Shown: positions 4,108 to 22,826 of the stretch, in pieces
Layout: the number at the start of each line of letters is the position of its first letter
How positions within the stretch are numbered: position 1 is the stretch's first letter
Assembly (NCBI GenBank): GCA_004367505.1
Contig: SFCB01000069.1
Span: forward strand, 1 to 32,927
Source of the DNA: Chloroflexi bacterium OHK40
GTDB taxonomy: Bacteria; Chloroflexota; Chloroflexia; Chloroflexales; Chloroflexaceae
Length of the DNA: 32,927 nucleotides
Direction: 5' to 3'
Program-made: the position numbers and the translations under genes
The notes under the pieces: generated by a model
Told to the model about the DNA's origin: nothing
Database searches by the model: none
What the model saw: the letters and a program-made list of their open reading frames with translations, nothing else

Positions 4108-5211
4108 ATGCACCTCCTCATCGTCTCCCCAGCGCGTCTCGTGCGCCAGTACGGCGCCCGTGGCACCGAGCGCATCCTTGCCCGCGTTGCCGCACTCGAG
4201 TCGGCGCGCCGCGCCGCCGGCCTCATCACCGCGCGCCTCATCCCTGAGGCGGGAATGGACGATCCTGGCGTCCCTCCGGCTGACCCGGCCAGTCCCGAGG
4301 AACTGCGGGCACAGATCGTGCGCCTCGCGGACGGGCTGGCGCGACGTGGGACCCCGCTGACGAGCGTGCTGCTGGTAGGCGGGCCAACGGCCTTGCCCTT
4401 CTTTCCCTGCCCCAACCCCATGCCCGACGACGACGACCGCATCCCGTCCGACTACCCGTACGGCGTTCGGCACCTGGATGGCCTGCTGCTCGACTGGGCG
4501 GTGGGCCGTTTGCCGGATGGTTCTGGCGACGATCCAGGTGGTCTGCTGCGCTTGCTCGCTCTGGCAACCTCTCTGCACCGCCGCCCGCCTGCTCCACCGC
4601 GAGCCTTCGGCTACAGTACCGCAGCCTGGCAGGGCGCTGCCGCCGCGATCTATGCCCGGCTCGACGACCCGGGGCGCCTGCTGCTCGCACCGCCCATCAG
4701 CGCCGATACGCTCGACCGCAGGCGCCTCCACGGCGCGTCGCGGATCTTCTGCAACGTCCACGGCGTAGCTGCCCGGCCCACCTGGTACGGACAGGCCGCT
4801 GGCCGGCGCGGTGAGCTCGTGGTTGCGCTTCGCCCGCGTGATCTCGACGGCCTGGCGTTGACGGGGGCCGTGGTAGTGTGCCCGGCCTGCTACGGCGCCT
4901 TCTCACCCAGCTACGATCTCGCCGACACGATCGCCATGCGCATGCTGCTCCAGGGTGCTGCCTGCTTCATCGGCGCGACCACCCTCTCCTACGGCCCGGC
5001 GGGGCTGCCGTTGCTCGGCGCCGACCTGCTGGCATACCACGTATTCGGGGCCGCTGCTGATCCCGGGGCCCGCGCTGGCGATCTGCTGCGGATTGGCCGG
5101 GAGCGCACCCTTGCCGACACCCTCCGCCAGCAGGGCTTCCTCGACGATGACGACGTGAAGACCCTCGTGCAGTTCGTGAGCTACGGCGATCCCGCGCTGC
5201 GCGTCGCGTGA
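4108..5211 (+). CDS. gingipain-like (peptidase C25, caspase-fold) cysteine protease
   Basis: A 367-residue protein laid out like a C25 catalytic domain without a secretion signal. The N-terminal alpha/beta part ends in VLLVGGPTALPFF, then IPSDYPYG and WAVGRLPDG, which match the 'VGD...SDY.Y...GRLP' pattern of gingipains. The putative catalytic dyad is His218 in NVHG and Cys261 in CPACYGAF (Cys258 is nearby). The C-terminus reads VSYGDPALRVA, a typical C25 ending. With no signal peptide it is probably cytoplasmic, unlike true gingipains. A CHAT or metacaspase relative is possible, but the GDPALR ending favours C25. It heads a same-strand run with a small unknown, a receiver-like protein and an HNH nuclease. 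The start has only a weak GGGG upstream. Confidence 0.75.
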   Translation: MHLLIVSPARLVRQYGARGTERILARVAALESARRAAGLITARLIPEAGMDDPGVPPADPASPEELRAQIVRLADGLARRGTPLTSVLLVGGPTALPFFPCPNPMPDDDDRIPSDYPYGVRHLDGLLLDWAVGRLPDGSGDDPGGLLRLLALATSLHRRPPAPPRAFGYSTAAWQGAAAAIYARLDDPGRLLLAPPISADTLDRRRLHGASRIFCNVHGVAARPTWYGQAAGRRGELVVALRPRDLDGLALTGAVVVCPACYGAFSPSYDLADTIAMRMLLQGAACFIGATTLSYGPAGLPLLGADLLAYHVFGAAADPGARAGDLLRIGRERTLADTLRQQGFLDDDDVKTLVQFVSYGDPALRVA

Positions 5212-6399: not shown

Positions 6400-7041
6400 A
6401 TGGCGCGATTCACCCGCCGCAGCAACCCCCCGCGCCACCGCAGCTACCAGCGCTACAAGCCCTACCTGCGCGACGATTTCGGGTATGCCTGCGTCTACTG
6501 TGGCATCCACGAGAACGAGTCCGGCGGGCCGCGCTTCTTCACCGTCGAGCACTACCGCCCTAAATCGCGCTTTCCCGAGTTGCGCAACGAGTACGGTAAC
6601 CTGCTCTACGCCTGCGCGGTGTGCAATGGCTACAAGGGCGATGACTGGCCCTCGGATCATCCGCTCGCCGACGGGCGTGGCTACCTGGATCCCTGCGAGC
6701 ATGACCTTGCCGAGCACGTGGGGCCGGCTGGCGACGATGAAGTGGCCGGCCTCACGCCCGTGGGTCGCTACATGGTGGAGCGGCTCCACCTGAACCGGGG
6801 GCTCCTGCGCAAGATCAGGCGCCTGCGGCGTGAGGACGAGGAGCTGCACACACGGTTCATGAAGCTGGCCGACCAGAGCCTGCGGCTGCTGGAGGTCGAG
6901 TTGCGGTCCGAGGCGATCAGGTCACGGCAGCGCCGGGCGCTGGAGCAGGAGCTCGTGGCCCTGCGGGCTCAGTACGAGCAGCGGCGCGCGGCCTGGGAGC
7001 GCCGCTGGGAGCCCCGCTTCACTCTGGAAGATTACCGCTAA
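6400..7041 (+). CDS. HNH endonuclease
   Basis: 213 residues. An HNH/zinc-ribbon nuclease: CVYC (Cys31/34) supplies the first zinc pair, VEHYRPKSRFP (Glu50-His51) carries the catalytic His, and YGNLLYACAVCN (Asn67, Cys72/75) carries the HNH Asn and the second zinc pair. It resembles the HNH family that includes PtuB of Septu and retron-linked nucleases, whose cores share an EH.RPKS...N...AC..CN..KG layout. No ATPase partner is present here. Residues 130-213 are helical and basic, possibly for DNA contact. The ATG at 6400 lacks a good ribosome-binding site; GTG 6373 is an in-frame alternative. The stop codon overlaps that of the convergent AmrS-like gene (CTAA, 7038-7041). Confidence 0.82.
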   Translation: MARFTRRSNPPRHRSYQRYKPYLRDDFGYACVYCGIHENESGGPRFFTVEHYRPKSRFPELRNEYGNLLYACAVCNGYKGDDWPSDHPLADGRGYLDPCEHDLAEHVGPAGDDEVAGLTPVGRYMVERLHLNRGLLRKIRRLRREDEELHTRFMKLADQSLRLLEVELRSEAIRSRQRRALEQELVALRAQYEQRRAAWERRWEPRFTLEDYR

Positions 7042-8042
7042 CGCTGCTTAAAGATCGAGAGGTGCAGCTTCGTCTCGTGGCCACAGCTCGTGCATGTGCT
7101 TCCGGTGAGGCCCACCAGCCGGGTAACCCCGCCGTTGCGGGTGATCAGGGTGTGGTGGCAGATCGGGCAGCGGGTCGCCTGGTTGGCTTCGGCGCCGTAG
7201 ACGTAGTGCAGGCCGCTCTCGTGGCCGATGCGGCGTGCCCGTGTGGTGGCGGCGGCCGTCTCGCTCCCGGCGTCGCCCGGCAGAACGTGCCAGGGGGTAT
7301 GTTCGCCGAGAGCGCCCTTGATCCAGGCCACCATCGCCCGCAGCTCCTCCGGGTCGTCGTTGACGCCGTGATGGATGCGGGTCGTTACCTCAAGGTGGCA
7401 CCCCCAGCGGGTGCGGGCGCGCTCGGCGATGGCGAGCAGCTCGTTCCAGGTGGGCAGCCCGCCGAGGCGGGCGTAGCTCGCATCGCTGAAGCCGCGCAGG
7501 TCGAGGCTCAGGCCATCGAGGTAGGGGCCGAGCTGGTCGAGGGCGGCGGTGGTCATCGCGCCAGTGGTGACAAGCGCAGTGTAGCGGCTGGAGGCGCGGC
7601 TGAGCTGCAGCAGGCCGCGCACATACTCGTGGTTCACGGCGGGCTCGCCAAAGGCCCAGACGACGCCACGGCAGAGGCGCTCAAGGGCGAAGGTGGCGGC
7701 GCGGTCGGCGTCGAGCTTGCGACGTTTGGCCGGGTCCTCGGGGATCGTGCCATACGGGGCCCGCCCCTGGTCGGCCACCGTCGCGTAGCCCCAGCCGCCG
7801 ATCGCGAGCACGAGCGAGTCGGGAAAGAAATGCCAGAGCCGGTGGTCTTCGATCGGGCCGATACTGGCCCCACTGATCAGGCCGTAGCTGCTGAGCGCGA
7901 TGCCTTCCGGCACGCCCACCCGCACCAGGCAGCGGCCCTCGGCGCCGGGGCGCAGCGCGCAGCGCCACTGGCAGGCCATACAGACGGTGGCGCCGTCGGC
8001 GCCGGGAGCAATGAGGTCGGCCAGATCCAGCTCCTGCGACAT
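7038..8042 (-). CDS. AmrS-like radical-SAM-family protein lacking the CX3CX2C motif
   Basis: 334 residues, ATG 8042 with AGGAG 5 bases upstream. It follows the AmrS / PflA-like layout of the AmmeMemoRadiSam family: an N-terminal CX2CX3CX9C cluster (Cys21, 24, 28, 38, ending GRCLVR), WHFFPDS, GVVWAFGEPAVNHEY, LVTTGAMT, LSLDLRGF, LEVTTRIHHGVND and PWHVLPGD. A C-terminal zinc ribbon has Cys292/295 and 317/320. The radical-SAM loop, expected after LVLAIG, reads GGWGYATVADQG: the three cysteines that bind the 4Fe-4S cluster align with Tyr86, Ala90 and Gly93. The reading frame is intact and codon use is normal, so this looks like a conserved pseudo-enzyme or one using another chemistry, not a recent wreck. 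Its AmmeMemo partners are not in the window. Confidence 0.8.
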   Translation of the reverse strand: MSQELDLADLIAPGADGATVCMACQWRCALRPGAEGRCLVRVGVPEGIALSSYGLISGASIGPIEDHRLWHFFPDSLVLAIGGWGYATVADQGRAPYGTIPEDPAKRRKLDADRAATFALERLCRGVVWAFGEPAVNHEYVRGLLQLSRASSRYTALVTTGAMTTAALDQLGPYLDGLSLDLRGFSDASYARLGGLPTWNELLAIAERARTRWGCHLEVTTRIHHGVNDDPEELRAMVAWIKGALGEHTPWHVLPGDAGSETAAATTRARRIGHESGLHYVYGAEANQATRCPICHHTLITRNGGVTRLVGLTGSTCTSCGHETKLHLSIFKQR

Positions 8043-8199: not shown

Positions 8200-8970
8200 A
8201 TGGACGAGTCACCGCTGCGGCGCGGCCTCGGGAGAGACCCGAGCAGCCCCGCCGTCGAGGAGCGTGTTGTCAGAGAGGGATGGGAGCCTGATCCGGTCGC
8301 GAGCGCGCCTGTTGGCGGCGCGCCTACTCGTGTGCGCAGTGTTGTGCGCGAGTTGGTGGAGACGGCGCTCTTCATTCTGCTGGTCTTTTTCATTGTGCGC
8401 GGGATCGTGCAGAACTTCAAGATCGAAGGCTCCAGCATGGAGCCGACGCTGCACACCGGGCAGTATATCCTCGTCAATAAGCTCGTCTACTTTCATTTCG
8501 ATCTGAACGCCCCGCTACGGCTCTTCCCCGGTCAGGAGGATCTGCCGCAGCGCATTATCTACCCCTTCCACCAGCCGCGCCGTGGCGATATCGTGGTGTT
8601 TGAGTACCCGCGCGATGTGAGCAAAGATTATATCAAGCGGGTGATCGCGCTCCCCGGCGAGACGGTCGAGATCCGCGATGGGAAGGTTTTCGTCAACGGG
8701 GTTGAGCTCGAGCAGCCCTACCTCGAAGGCGCGCCAACCTACTGCGTGGCCGGCTACCCCTGCCACTCGGGCCCGGTGGTGGTGCCCGAGGGCCAGATCT
8801 TCGTCATGGGCGATAATCGCGCCAACTCCAGCGACTCGCGCGAGTGGAACGCCCTGCCTCTGGATCGGGTCGTGGGTCAGGCCTGGGTGATCTACTACCC
8901 CGTGTCGGAATGGGGGCTCGTGCCGCACTATCACTACGACGCGCCCGATACGGTCGCTCGCAGCCCCTGA
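8200..8970 (+). CDS. lepB: signal peptidase I
   Basis: 256 residues. A membrane-anchored serine protease that removes signal peptides from exported proteins. A charged cytoplasmic stretch of about 45 residues is followed by one membrane segment (TALFILLVFFIVRGIV, about 55-70). The catalytic Ser79 lies in GSSMEPT, the general base Lys146 in YIKRVIALPG, and the box GDNRANSSDSR sits near residues 204-214. Length and motifs are standard for the type I family. AGGGA lies 4-5 bases before the ATG. The stop overlaps the start of the glycosyltransferase (TGATG), so the two are co-transcribed. The signal peptides of the amidase (1044) and amylase (24542) are likely substrates, though this genome may have other signal peptidases. 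Confidence 0.95.
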   Translation: MDESPLRRGLGRDPSSPAVEERVVREGWEPDPVASAPVGGAPTRVRSVVRELVETALFILLVFFIVRGIVQNFKIEGSSMEPTLHTGQYILVNKLVYFHFDLNAPLRLFPGQEDLPQRIIYPFHQPRRGDIVVFEYPRDVSKDYIKRVIALPGETVEIRDGKVFVNGVELEQPYLEGAPTYCVAGYPCHSGPVVVPEGQIFVMGDNRANSSDSREWNALPLDRVVGQAWVIYYPVSEWGLVPHYHYDAPDTVARSP

Positions 8971-20625: not shown

Positions 20626-20723
20626 TCACCGTGGCGACTCTCTAGCACATTGGTACGGCCACGGCCCGCGCAGTTGGAATGGGCGGGCCGCCTCTCCTGG
20701 CTCCGGTGCAGCGAAGGACCCCC

Positions 20724-22826
20724 ATGCCTGACGAGTTGCTCTACTTCAATGGCGTGAATGCGAGCCGGGGCGCCTATGGCCGCGAGCCGATGACCGCCGC
20801 AGAGTTGGCCGCCCTGATCCGTGGCCCCGCACCGCGTGGCGAGCAGGTGGACCCCGATCCCGAGCAGCGGCGCCTGCTCAAGCAGCGCGCCCAGCAACTG
20901 GAAACCGGCGCGTTCGAGGTGAAGGAGGGCGTCCAGCAGGACGATCTCTCCCAGACGGGCTGGGCGGTCGTCTTTCCGGCACCGCCCGCCGGCACCCCCG
21001 ATCCCTACGCGGCCGTGCGCGAGGCCCTGGCGCCCCTGCTCGATCTGCGCCGTCGTCAGGCTGGCCCGCTCTACCGCGAGTGTTTCGGCCCGGCCGGCTA
21101 TCGCCCTGGTGAGTCCCGGGGTGATTTCCTCAAGCGCCAGGGCGCGGCCACCAGCGGCCCGGTCGATCCTGAGCGCTTTCCGTATTATGTGCTGCTGGTC
21201 GGCTCCCCCGAGGAGATCCCTTTCCGCTTTCAGTACCAGCTAGACGTGCAGTACGCCGTGGGCCGCCTGCATCTGGAGCACGTCCGGGCCTACGGCCAGT
21301 ACGCCGCCAGCGTGGTGGCTGCCGAGAGCGGTGAGGTGGCCCTGGCGCGGCGAGCGGTCTTCTTTGCCCCGGCTAATCCCGACGACCCGGCAACCAGGCG
21401 CTCGGCGAGCGAGTTGGTGGCGCCGCTGGCCGCCTCGCTCCAGGCCGAAAAGCGCGCTAGCACCTGGCAGATCGCGCGCGTGGCTGGCGAGCAGGCCACC
21501 AAGGCGCGTCTCGCCGCGCTCCTCGGTGGCGCCGAAACGCCCGCCCTGCTCTTCACCGCCAGCCACGGCGCCGAGTTCGACCCGAGCGACCCCAGGCAGG
21601 TGGCTCACCAGGGCGCTTTGATCTGCCAGGATTGGCCGGGCCCCCGCGGCTGGGGCCGTCGGCCGCTCCCCGCCGACTTCTACCTCGCCGGCGATGATAT
21701 CGGCGCCGACGCCCGCATCCTCGGCACGGTCGCCTTTCACTTCGCCTGCTTCGGCGCCGGTACGCCGCGTCTGGACGACTTCCCCCATGAGCGCGGCGCT
21801 CAGGCCGCGATCGCCCCCCACGCCTTCGTCAGCCGGCTCGCTCAGCGGTTGCTTGGCCACCCCAGAGGCGGCGCCCTGGCCGTGATCGGCCACGTGGAAC
21901 GGGCCTGGACCTACTCCTTCAGCGATAGCTATGGCGCCCGGCAGCTGGAGACCTTCGACAGCGCTCTGCGGCGGATCATGCTCGCGGGCGCGCCGGTGGG
22001 CTGGGCCCTGGAGTTCTTCAACAATCGCTACGCCGAGCTTGCCACCGGCCTCACCGAGGATTTCGAGAACATCCGCTTTGGCACCCCGCCCGACGACTAC
22101 ATCTTCACGGCGCGCTGGACCGAACATAACGATGCGCGCAGCTACGTGGTGCTCGGCGATCCGGCGGTGCGGCTGCCTCTGGCGCCCGCCGATGTCGAGC
22201 CGCCCGCTGCGCGTGCCACCATCCCCGAGGTAGCCATGCCCGACCCGCCCACCGCAGGCGCCGCTCAACCAGCGCCCGAGCGCCCGGATCTCCCCGCGAG
22301 CCCCGCATCGCCCGGCGATACGCCCGCGCCGGCCTACACCCTCACGACCCCTGGCCCGGTCGTGATCTACGCGGGTTACCCCCCGGGTGGGCTGCCCGCC
22401 CAGGGTTCGGCAGGCAGTTACGGGCTCGGCGACCTCTTCCGCAGCGGTGGCGAGGCCGTGAATGAGACGTTCCAGAAGCTCAACGAGACCCTCCGGGGCT
22501 TCGCCGAAAAGCTGAGCCAGACGCTCCAGACCACCCTCGAAGATGCGGCTCACCTGGAGGTGGAAACCTATGTCGCCTCCGACCTCGCGGCAATCGCCTA
22601 TCGCCAGGGCGACTTCAGCGGCGCCGAGCTGCGGGCCGTCACGCGGATGAGCCTCGACGGTGACACACAGGTGCTGGTGCCGCAGCGCGACGGTGGTGGC
22701 GTGGATACGGAGCTCTGGGCCGTTCATACCAGTATGGTCGCCCAGGCCCAGGCCAATCGCGCCGAAATGATCAAGGCGATTGCCGAGGCTGCCTCGGGCC
22801 TCTTCGCGGCCATGCAGGGCAAGTGA
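20724..22826 (+). CDS. large caspase-fold (C25-like) cysteine protease with C-terminal adaptor-like domain
   Basis: 700 residues, no signal peptide. The N-terminal third is helical and charged, then YVLLVGSPEEIPF and QYAVGRL mark the C25-like core. The putative dyad is His281 in TASHGAEF and Cys342 in FHFACFGAGTP; the core ends near VVLGDPAVRLPL, as in gingipain relatives. A Pro/Ala-rich linker (about 490-575) leads to a C-terminal domain (about 580-700) that matches the separate 109-residue protein at 23629. Shared features include EDAA, V-TY, LDGDT-V-VP-R and a VH before the last helix. GAAGGA lies about 6 bases before ATG 20724. The next two genes lie on the same strand at short spacing. 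The protease family call is strong; its targets and trigger are unknown. Confidence 0.75.
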   Translation: MPDELLYFNGVNASRGAYGREPMTAAELAALIRGPAPRGEQVDPDPEQRRLLKQRAQQLETGAFEVKEGVQQDDLSQTGWAVVFPAPPAGTPDPYAAVREALAPLLDLRRRQAGPLYRECFGPAGYRPGESRGDFLKRQGAATSGPVDPERFPYYVLLVGSPEEIPFRFQYQLDVQYAVGRLHLEHVRAYGQYAASVVAAESGEVALARRAVFFAPANPDDPATRRSASELVAPLAASLQAEKRASTWQIARVAGEQATKARLAALLGGAETPALLFTASHGAEFDPSDPRQVAHQGALICQDWPGPRGWGRRPLPADFYLAGDDIGADARILGTVAFHFACFGAGTPRLDDFPHERGAQAAIAPHAFVSRLAQRLLGHPRGGALAVIGHVERAWTYSFSDSYGARQLETFDSALRRIMLAGAPVGWALEFFNNRYAELATGLTEDFENIRFGTPPDDYIFTARWTEHNDARSYVVLGDPAVRLPLAPADVEPPAARATIPEVAMPDPPTAGAAQPAPERPDLPASPASPGDTPAPAYTLTTPGPVVIYAGYPPGGLPAQGSAGSYGLGDLFRSGGEAVNETFQKLNETLRGFAEKLSQTLQTTLEDAAHLEVETYVASDLAAIAYRQGDFSGAELRAVTRMSLDGDTQVLVPQRDGGGVDTELWAVHTSMVAQAQANRAEMIKAIAEAASGLFAAMQGK

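Follow-up and report, generated by a model that had tools for sequence, protein, structure and literature searches.

The AmrS-like gene and its surroundings

The window analysed here, a stretch of 32,927 nucleotides from contig SFCB01000069.1 of Chloroflexi bacterium OHK40, carries on its minus strand a single-copy gene homologous to AmrS (Table 1). Its open frame of 334 amino acids begins with an ATG at 8042, with AGGAG five bases 5' of it, and ends with a stop codon at 7040-7038; the position and the intact frame proposed by the initial annotation, which had given no strand, were confirmed. The AmrS family model (TIGR04337) matched residues 15-324 of the product (E 9e-40), nonetheless the score was below the curated family cut-off of 220 bits, while a cysteine-bearing relative (L121) reached 309 bits. 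The match to the Pfam Radical_SAM profile (PF04055; residues 114-234, 27.7 bits) was just below the gathering score of 29.5 bits.

The product shares with AmrS the homology over this length, the N-terminal CX2CX3CX8-9C, the C-terminal ribbon and the barrel fold, and belongs to the same family as the cysteine-bearing AmrS relatives of Chloroflexota. It differs from AmrS in having no CX3CX2C, no DxK lysine and no DPIEKKP motif, and in its shortened SRFxP segment. At the site where relatives show CNFxCxxCQNW the product reads FFPDSLVLAIGGWGYATVADQG, and the cysteines that would hold the radical-SAM cluster are absent. The description of an AmrS framework that retained the N-terminal CX2CX3CX9C and the C-terminal ribbon, with the loop GGWGYATVADQG in place of the cluster cysteines, was therefore correct.

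Table 1. Features of the AmrS-like gene and its divergent neighbour, in positions of the window
Feature	Position	Strand	Remarks
Cysteine-less AmrS homologue gene	7038..8042	-	334 aa, stop codon included; open frame, TIGR04337 match 136.6 bits, conserved clade, dN/dS 0.01-0.17
N-terminal four-cysteine motif C21-X2-C24-X3-C28-X9-C38	7929..7982	-	Four cysteines present in every sequence, 54/54 cysteine-less and 38/38 cysteine-bearing
Loop GGWGYATVADQG, residues 82-93, replacing the radical-SAM CX3CX2C	7764..7799	-	Cysteines in 0/54 of the clade and 38/38 cysteine-bearing relatives; short helix 89-94 in the predicted model
R183, at the D(I/L)K lysine position, which aligns with K131 of PFL-activase	7494..7496	-	K in 38/38 cysteine-bearing and 0/54 cysteine-less sequences; alignment to 3c8f
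Segment PWHVLPGDAGSET, residues 250-262, a shorter and altered counterpart of PWHxTRFxP...PTP	7257..7295	-	Alignment; F, P and T positions lost
C-terminal zinc-ribbon-like cysteines C292/C295/C317/C320 (C292-X2-C295, C317-X2-C320)	7083..7169	-	All four in 54/54 cysteine-less sequences
Signal peptidase I, divergent neighbour	8200..8970	+	PF10502, TIGR02227; synteny across Chloroflexales and G307

The signal peptidase I gene is a marker of the locus and not evidence of a functional link to the AmrS-like gene. On the other side, an HNH endonuclease-like gene (PF01844; 6310-7041, plus strand) is convergent with the AmrS-like gene and overlaps it by four bases at the stop codons. Elsewhere in the window, an open reading frame at 4108-5211 (plus strand) matched peptidase family C25 (PF01364), and a second one at 20679-22826 (plus strand) appeared by eye to be similar to it.

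Distribution of the cysteine-less clade and selection on it

Sixty-one genomes, the window's own and its relatives, were searched. A match was found in 55 of them and in 53 it was an orthologue, whole or partial, while G052 and G060 held only a distant AmrS; named assemblies, including Chloroflexus islandicus, 'Candidatus Viridilinea' and Oscillochloris, contributed 21 further loci. Together with a phylum-wide search, a search of the AmrS family and the order of genome G307, these sources gave 92 distinct sequences, 38 cysteine-bearing and 54 cysteine-less. The latter derive from Chloroflexales and from one further order of Chloroflexia, that of G307. The search for cysteine-less relatives outside Chloroflexota covered close relatives only, and plasmid replicons yielded no close relative but only distant AmrS at 25-29% identity.

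The three cysteines of CX3CX2C were all present in 38/38 cysteine-bearing sequences and all missing from the 54 cysteine-less orthologues, with no intermediates among the 92. In a maximum-likelihood tree computed without the loop columns, the cysteine-less sequences, those of G307's order included, fell on one branch (support 100/99), and the presence or absence of the cysteines required one change of state; separate losses in G307's order and in Chloroflexales were rejected on this basis. Aligning the product with its homologues, as had been proposed, thus showed that sequences with the cysteine-free loop form a conserved clade. Close relatives with a full CX3CX2C, which would have pointed to a mutation confined to one genome or to a sequencing error, were sought as well and not found: the nearest cysteine-bearing homologues belong to other Chloroflexota, are about 35% identical and mostly read CNFHCxxCQNW in the loop. 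The signal peptidase gene diverges from the locus throughout Chloroflexales and at G307, which fits vertical inheritance. The gene was not found in three genomes of Chloroflexales (G039, G040 and G058, 92-99% complete), hence it is not essential in all members of the order.

Pairwise dN/dS values within the clade were about 0.01-0.17 (Nei-Gojobori and Yang-Nielsen methods, some pairs being near saturation), much like the 0.03-0.14 of canonical AmrS pairs of the same order. The cysteine-less protein is under purifying selection and in use, and the supposition that loss of the cysteines had been tolerated or selected agrees with these values and with the 54 orthologues devoid of them. That the loop reflects a sequencing error or a recent mutation, or that the gene is a decaying pseudogene, is suggested by nothing except the missing cysteines themselves, and deserves practically no credence. 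An error or a single-genome mutation was ruled out by the 54 distinct orthologues sharing the loss, which come from many independent assemblies, and the alignments of relatives cross the loop without a frameshift. A pseudogene was ruled out by dN/dS far below 1, and the same result excludes loss of function of the gene as a whole; at the sequence level this explanation is already refuted. In-frame TAA or TAG codons flagged in some relatives did not reflect recoding, since in the loci checked (L019, L022 and L023) a natural stop had been read through by one residue.

Catalytic motifs and predicted fold

Positions conserved in at least 90% of the 38 cysteine-bearing sequences were checked in the 54 cysteine-less ones. 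The QNW following the cluster cysteines was lost along with them. Together with these, the DPIEKKP motif lost its D, K and P (of which K and P are present in 100% of the cysteine-bearing sequences, and this K is now found in 1/54), and the SRFxP...PTP segment, shorter in the alignment, lost its F, P and T. The lysine of D(I/L)K went from 100% to 0%; in the alignment to 3c8f its position corresponds to K131 of PFL-activase, a residue that contacts the methionine part of SAM. The glycine-rich GE motif is variable. On the contrary, the cysteines at the two ends, eight in all, were kept in 54/54 cysteine-less sequences, and so were H71, P74, G85, E218 and N228. Overall, a single ancestral loss of catalytic residues was accompanied by purifying selection on the rest of the protein.

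The AlphaFold2 model of the cysteine-less protein, built with 76 family sequences, had a mean pLDDT of 95.7. Its best structural match was PFL-activase (3c8f with residues 49-283 of the model; Z 19.7, 218 residues, rmsd 3.0), followed by other radical-SAM enzymes; a search of solved structures by sequence gave nothing beyond weak matches to PFL-activase. The model of the cysteine-bearing L121 (pLDDT 94.7) was closer to PFL-activase (3cb8; Z 25.7, 225 residues, rmsd 2.3), and the radical-SAM barrel of the cysteine-less protein is accordingly predicted to be kept but drifted. The old cluster loop was modelled as a confident short helix (89-94), while the model of the cysteine-bearing relative was mostly coil there, with lower confidence. 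PFL-activase, unlike the product, has the GGE motif, K131 and the cluster, and its solved chains comprise only the barrel, lacking the N-terminal four-cysteine part as well as the C-terminal ribbon.

The initial annotation had offered two readings of the missing cysteines, of which the pseudo-enzyme is the better one, given the loss of cluster cysteines and of other core positions across the whole clade. The second, a still active radical-SAM enzyme whose catalytic [4Fe-4S] cluster is now carried by the N-terminal four cysteines, could appeal to their invariance in the clade, yet they are equally invariant in the 38 cysteine-bearing AmrS; they were inherited with another role and not recruited as a replacement cluster site. 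Furthermore, these cysteines precede residue 49 and fall outside the region aligned with PFL-activase, and the K131-aligned lysine and other core motifs decayed along with the loop, so that this second reading appears highly improbable.

The main rival is that the barrel gained a new activity, either non-radical catalysis or the binding of a small molecule such as SAM or a nucleotide without a cluster, which would make the protein an enzyme or a sensor rather than a scaffold. In its favour, the fold is predicted with high confidence to be kept, several pocket-side positions are conserved (such as E218 and N228 in 54/54), and Chloroflexaceae show good conservation of the new loop as well (GGWGYA...DQ). 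However, the lysine counterpart of the SAM-contacting K131 is gone in 54/54 sequences, the glycine-rich GE motif varies, and no new invariant set of catalytic-looking residues was found in the cysteine-less clade. We consider a new activity of this kind rather unlikely. Ligand binding as such may be possible, since many members retain conserved residues in part of the SAM-pocket region, with G132 or N in most of them in addition to E218 and N228.

Genomic partners and probable role

The AMMECR1-Memo-AmrS system is widespread and, as far as is known, has no settled function; two of its parts have human family members, AMMECR1 and MEMO1. In other Chloroflexota the cysteine-bearing gene is followed downstream by AMMECR1 and usually by Memo, as separate genes or as a fusion. 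At one locus (L151; 7060-8451, plus strand) a LigB-type dioxygenase domain is fused to AMMECR1 where other loci carry the Memo-AMMECR1 fusion.

Among the genomes sampled, AMMECR1 was present in 19/19 with the cysteine-bearing gene vs. 3/19 with the cysteine-less one. Most members of the window's family have lost AMMECR1 and Memo and, unlike what is typical of AmrS, searches of the window's genome retrieved no AMMECR1, Memo or canonical AmrS. The association with AMMECR1 is retained by the Herpetosiphonaceae orthologues, where the cysteine-less gene lies directly upstream of AMMECR1 on the same strand (gaps of 7 and 27 bases in two genomes), and Memo and canonical AmrS were absent in all but one of the Herpetosiphonaceae genomes searched. 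AMMECR1 was absent from the other cysteine-less genomes searched, with the single exception of G001. Since most of the clade has no AMMECR1, the protein cannot in general act as its partner. Three genomes (G004, G019 and G034; loci L092, L084 and L086) carry a canonical AmrS, far above the family cut-off, beside the cysteine-less one; neither AMMECR1 nor Memo was found in them, and the radical-SAM AmrS is an orphan there.

COX1 was found in 16/17 cysteine-less vs. 5/19 cysteine-bearing genomes, and in a published survey 3.4% of aerobes and 50.7% of anaerobes had AMMECR1 (PMC13386939). This pattern fits the disappearance of an oxygen-sensitive cluster during a transition to aerobic life, but it is a correlation that derives from one evolutionary event in the phylogeny and therefore carries no statistical weight.

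The status of the protein as a pseudo-enzyme is well supported; its present function is an inference. The protein is probably a retired radical-SAM enzyme, kept after a single ancient loss as a metal-stabilised binding or adaptor protein. It goes back to the AmrS component of an AMMECR1-Memo-AmrS system of Chloroflexota and, as the sequences show, lost once, in an ancestor of Chloroflexales and of the neighbouring order of G307, the CX3CX2C site together with the DxK lysine and other core motifs, probably during a move to oxygen-using life. With these motifs gone, it should no longer perform radical-SAM chemistry by the known mechanism. What purifying selection retained may be a barrel-fold protein that metal at two cysteine sites stabilises, whose most likely role would be to bind a substrate or a partner of the old AMMECR1 pathway; in Herpetosiphonaceae it could act with AMMECR1, and elsewhere with another partner. 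A more specific scenario, which we regard as speculative and on the whole doubtful, is that the cysteine-less AmrS and AMMECR1 of Herpetosiphonaceae constitute an oxygen-tolerant AMMECR1 pathway free of Memo and of the cluster, whose non-radical job was kept by Chloroflexaceae and Roseiflexaceae after the loss of AMMECR1.

A protein of Chloroflexia that descends from a radical-chemistry enzyme thus lost the metal site on which that chemistry depends once, long ago, and its retention by selection implies that it must do another job. A natural, selected AmrS without the cluster separates the roles of the fold and of the two cysteine sites from radical chemistry, and the label 'radical SAM enzyme' applied to this order-wide cysteine-less family would misstate its chemistry. 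No description of a cysteine-less AmrS or of a similar radical-SAM pseudo-enzyme was found in the literature searched, coverage of which was incomplete; an eLife paper merely mentions Memo-AMMECR1 systems.

At seven loci (L134, L135, L136, L137, L143, L150 and L052) the cysteine-less gene has a lipoate-protein-ligase gene 0.3-1.3 kb downstream on its own strand, followed in several of them by glycine-cleavage-like genes. As a functional hint this arrangement is weak, because the two families that show it are neighbours in the tree. At one of these loci (L136, in the Herpetosiphonaceae genome G044; 6979-7503, plus strand), the AMMECR1 beside the cysteine-less gene reads LRGSVG, where the rest of the AMMECR1 sequences in the comparison have LRGC(I/V)G.
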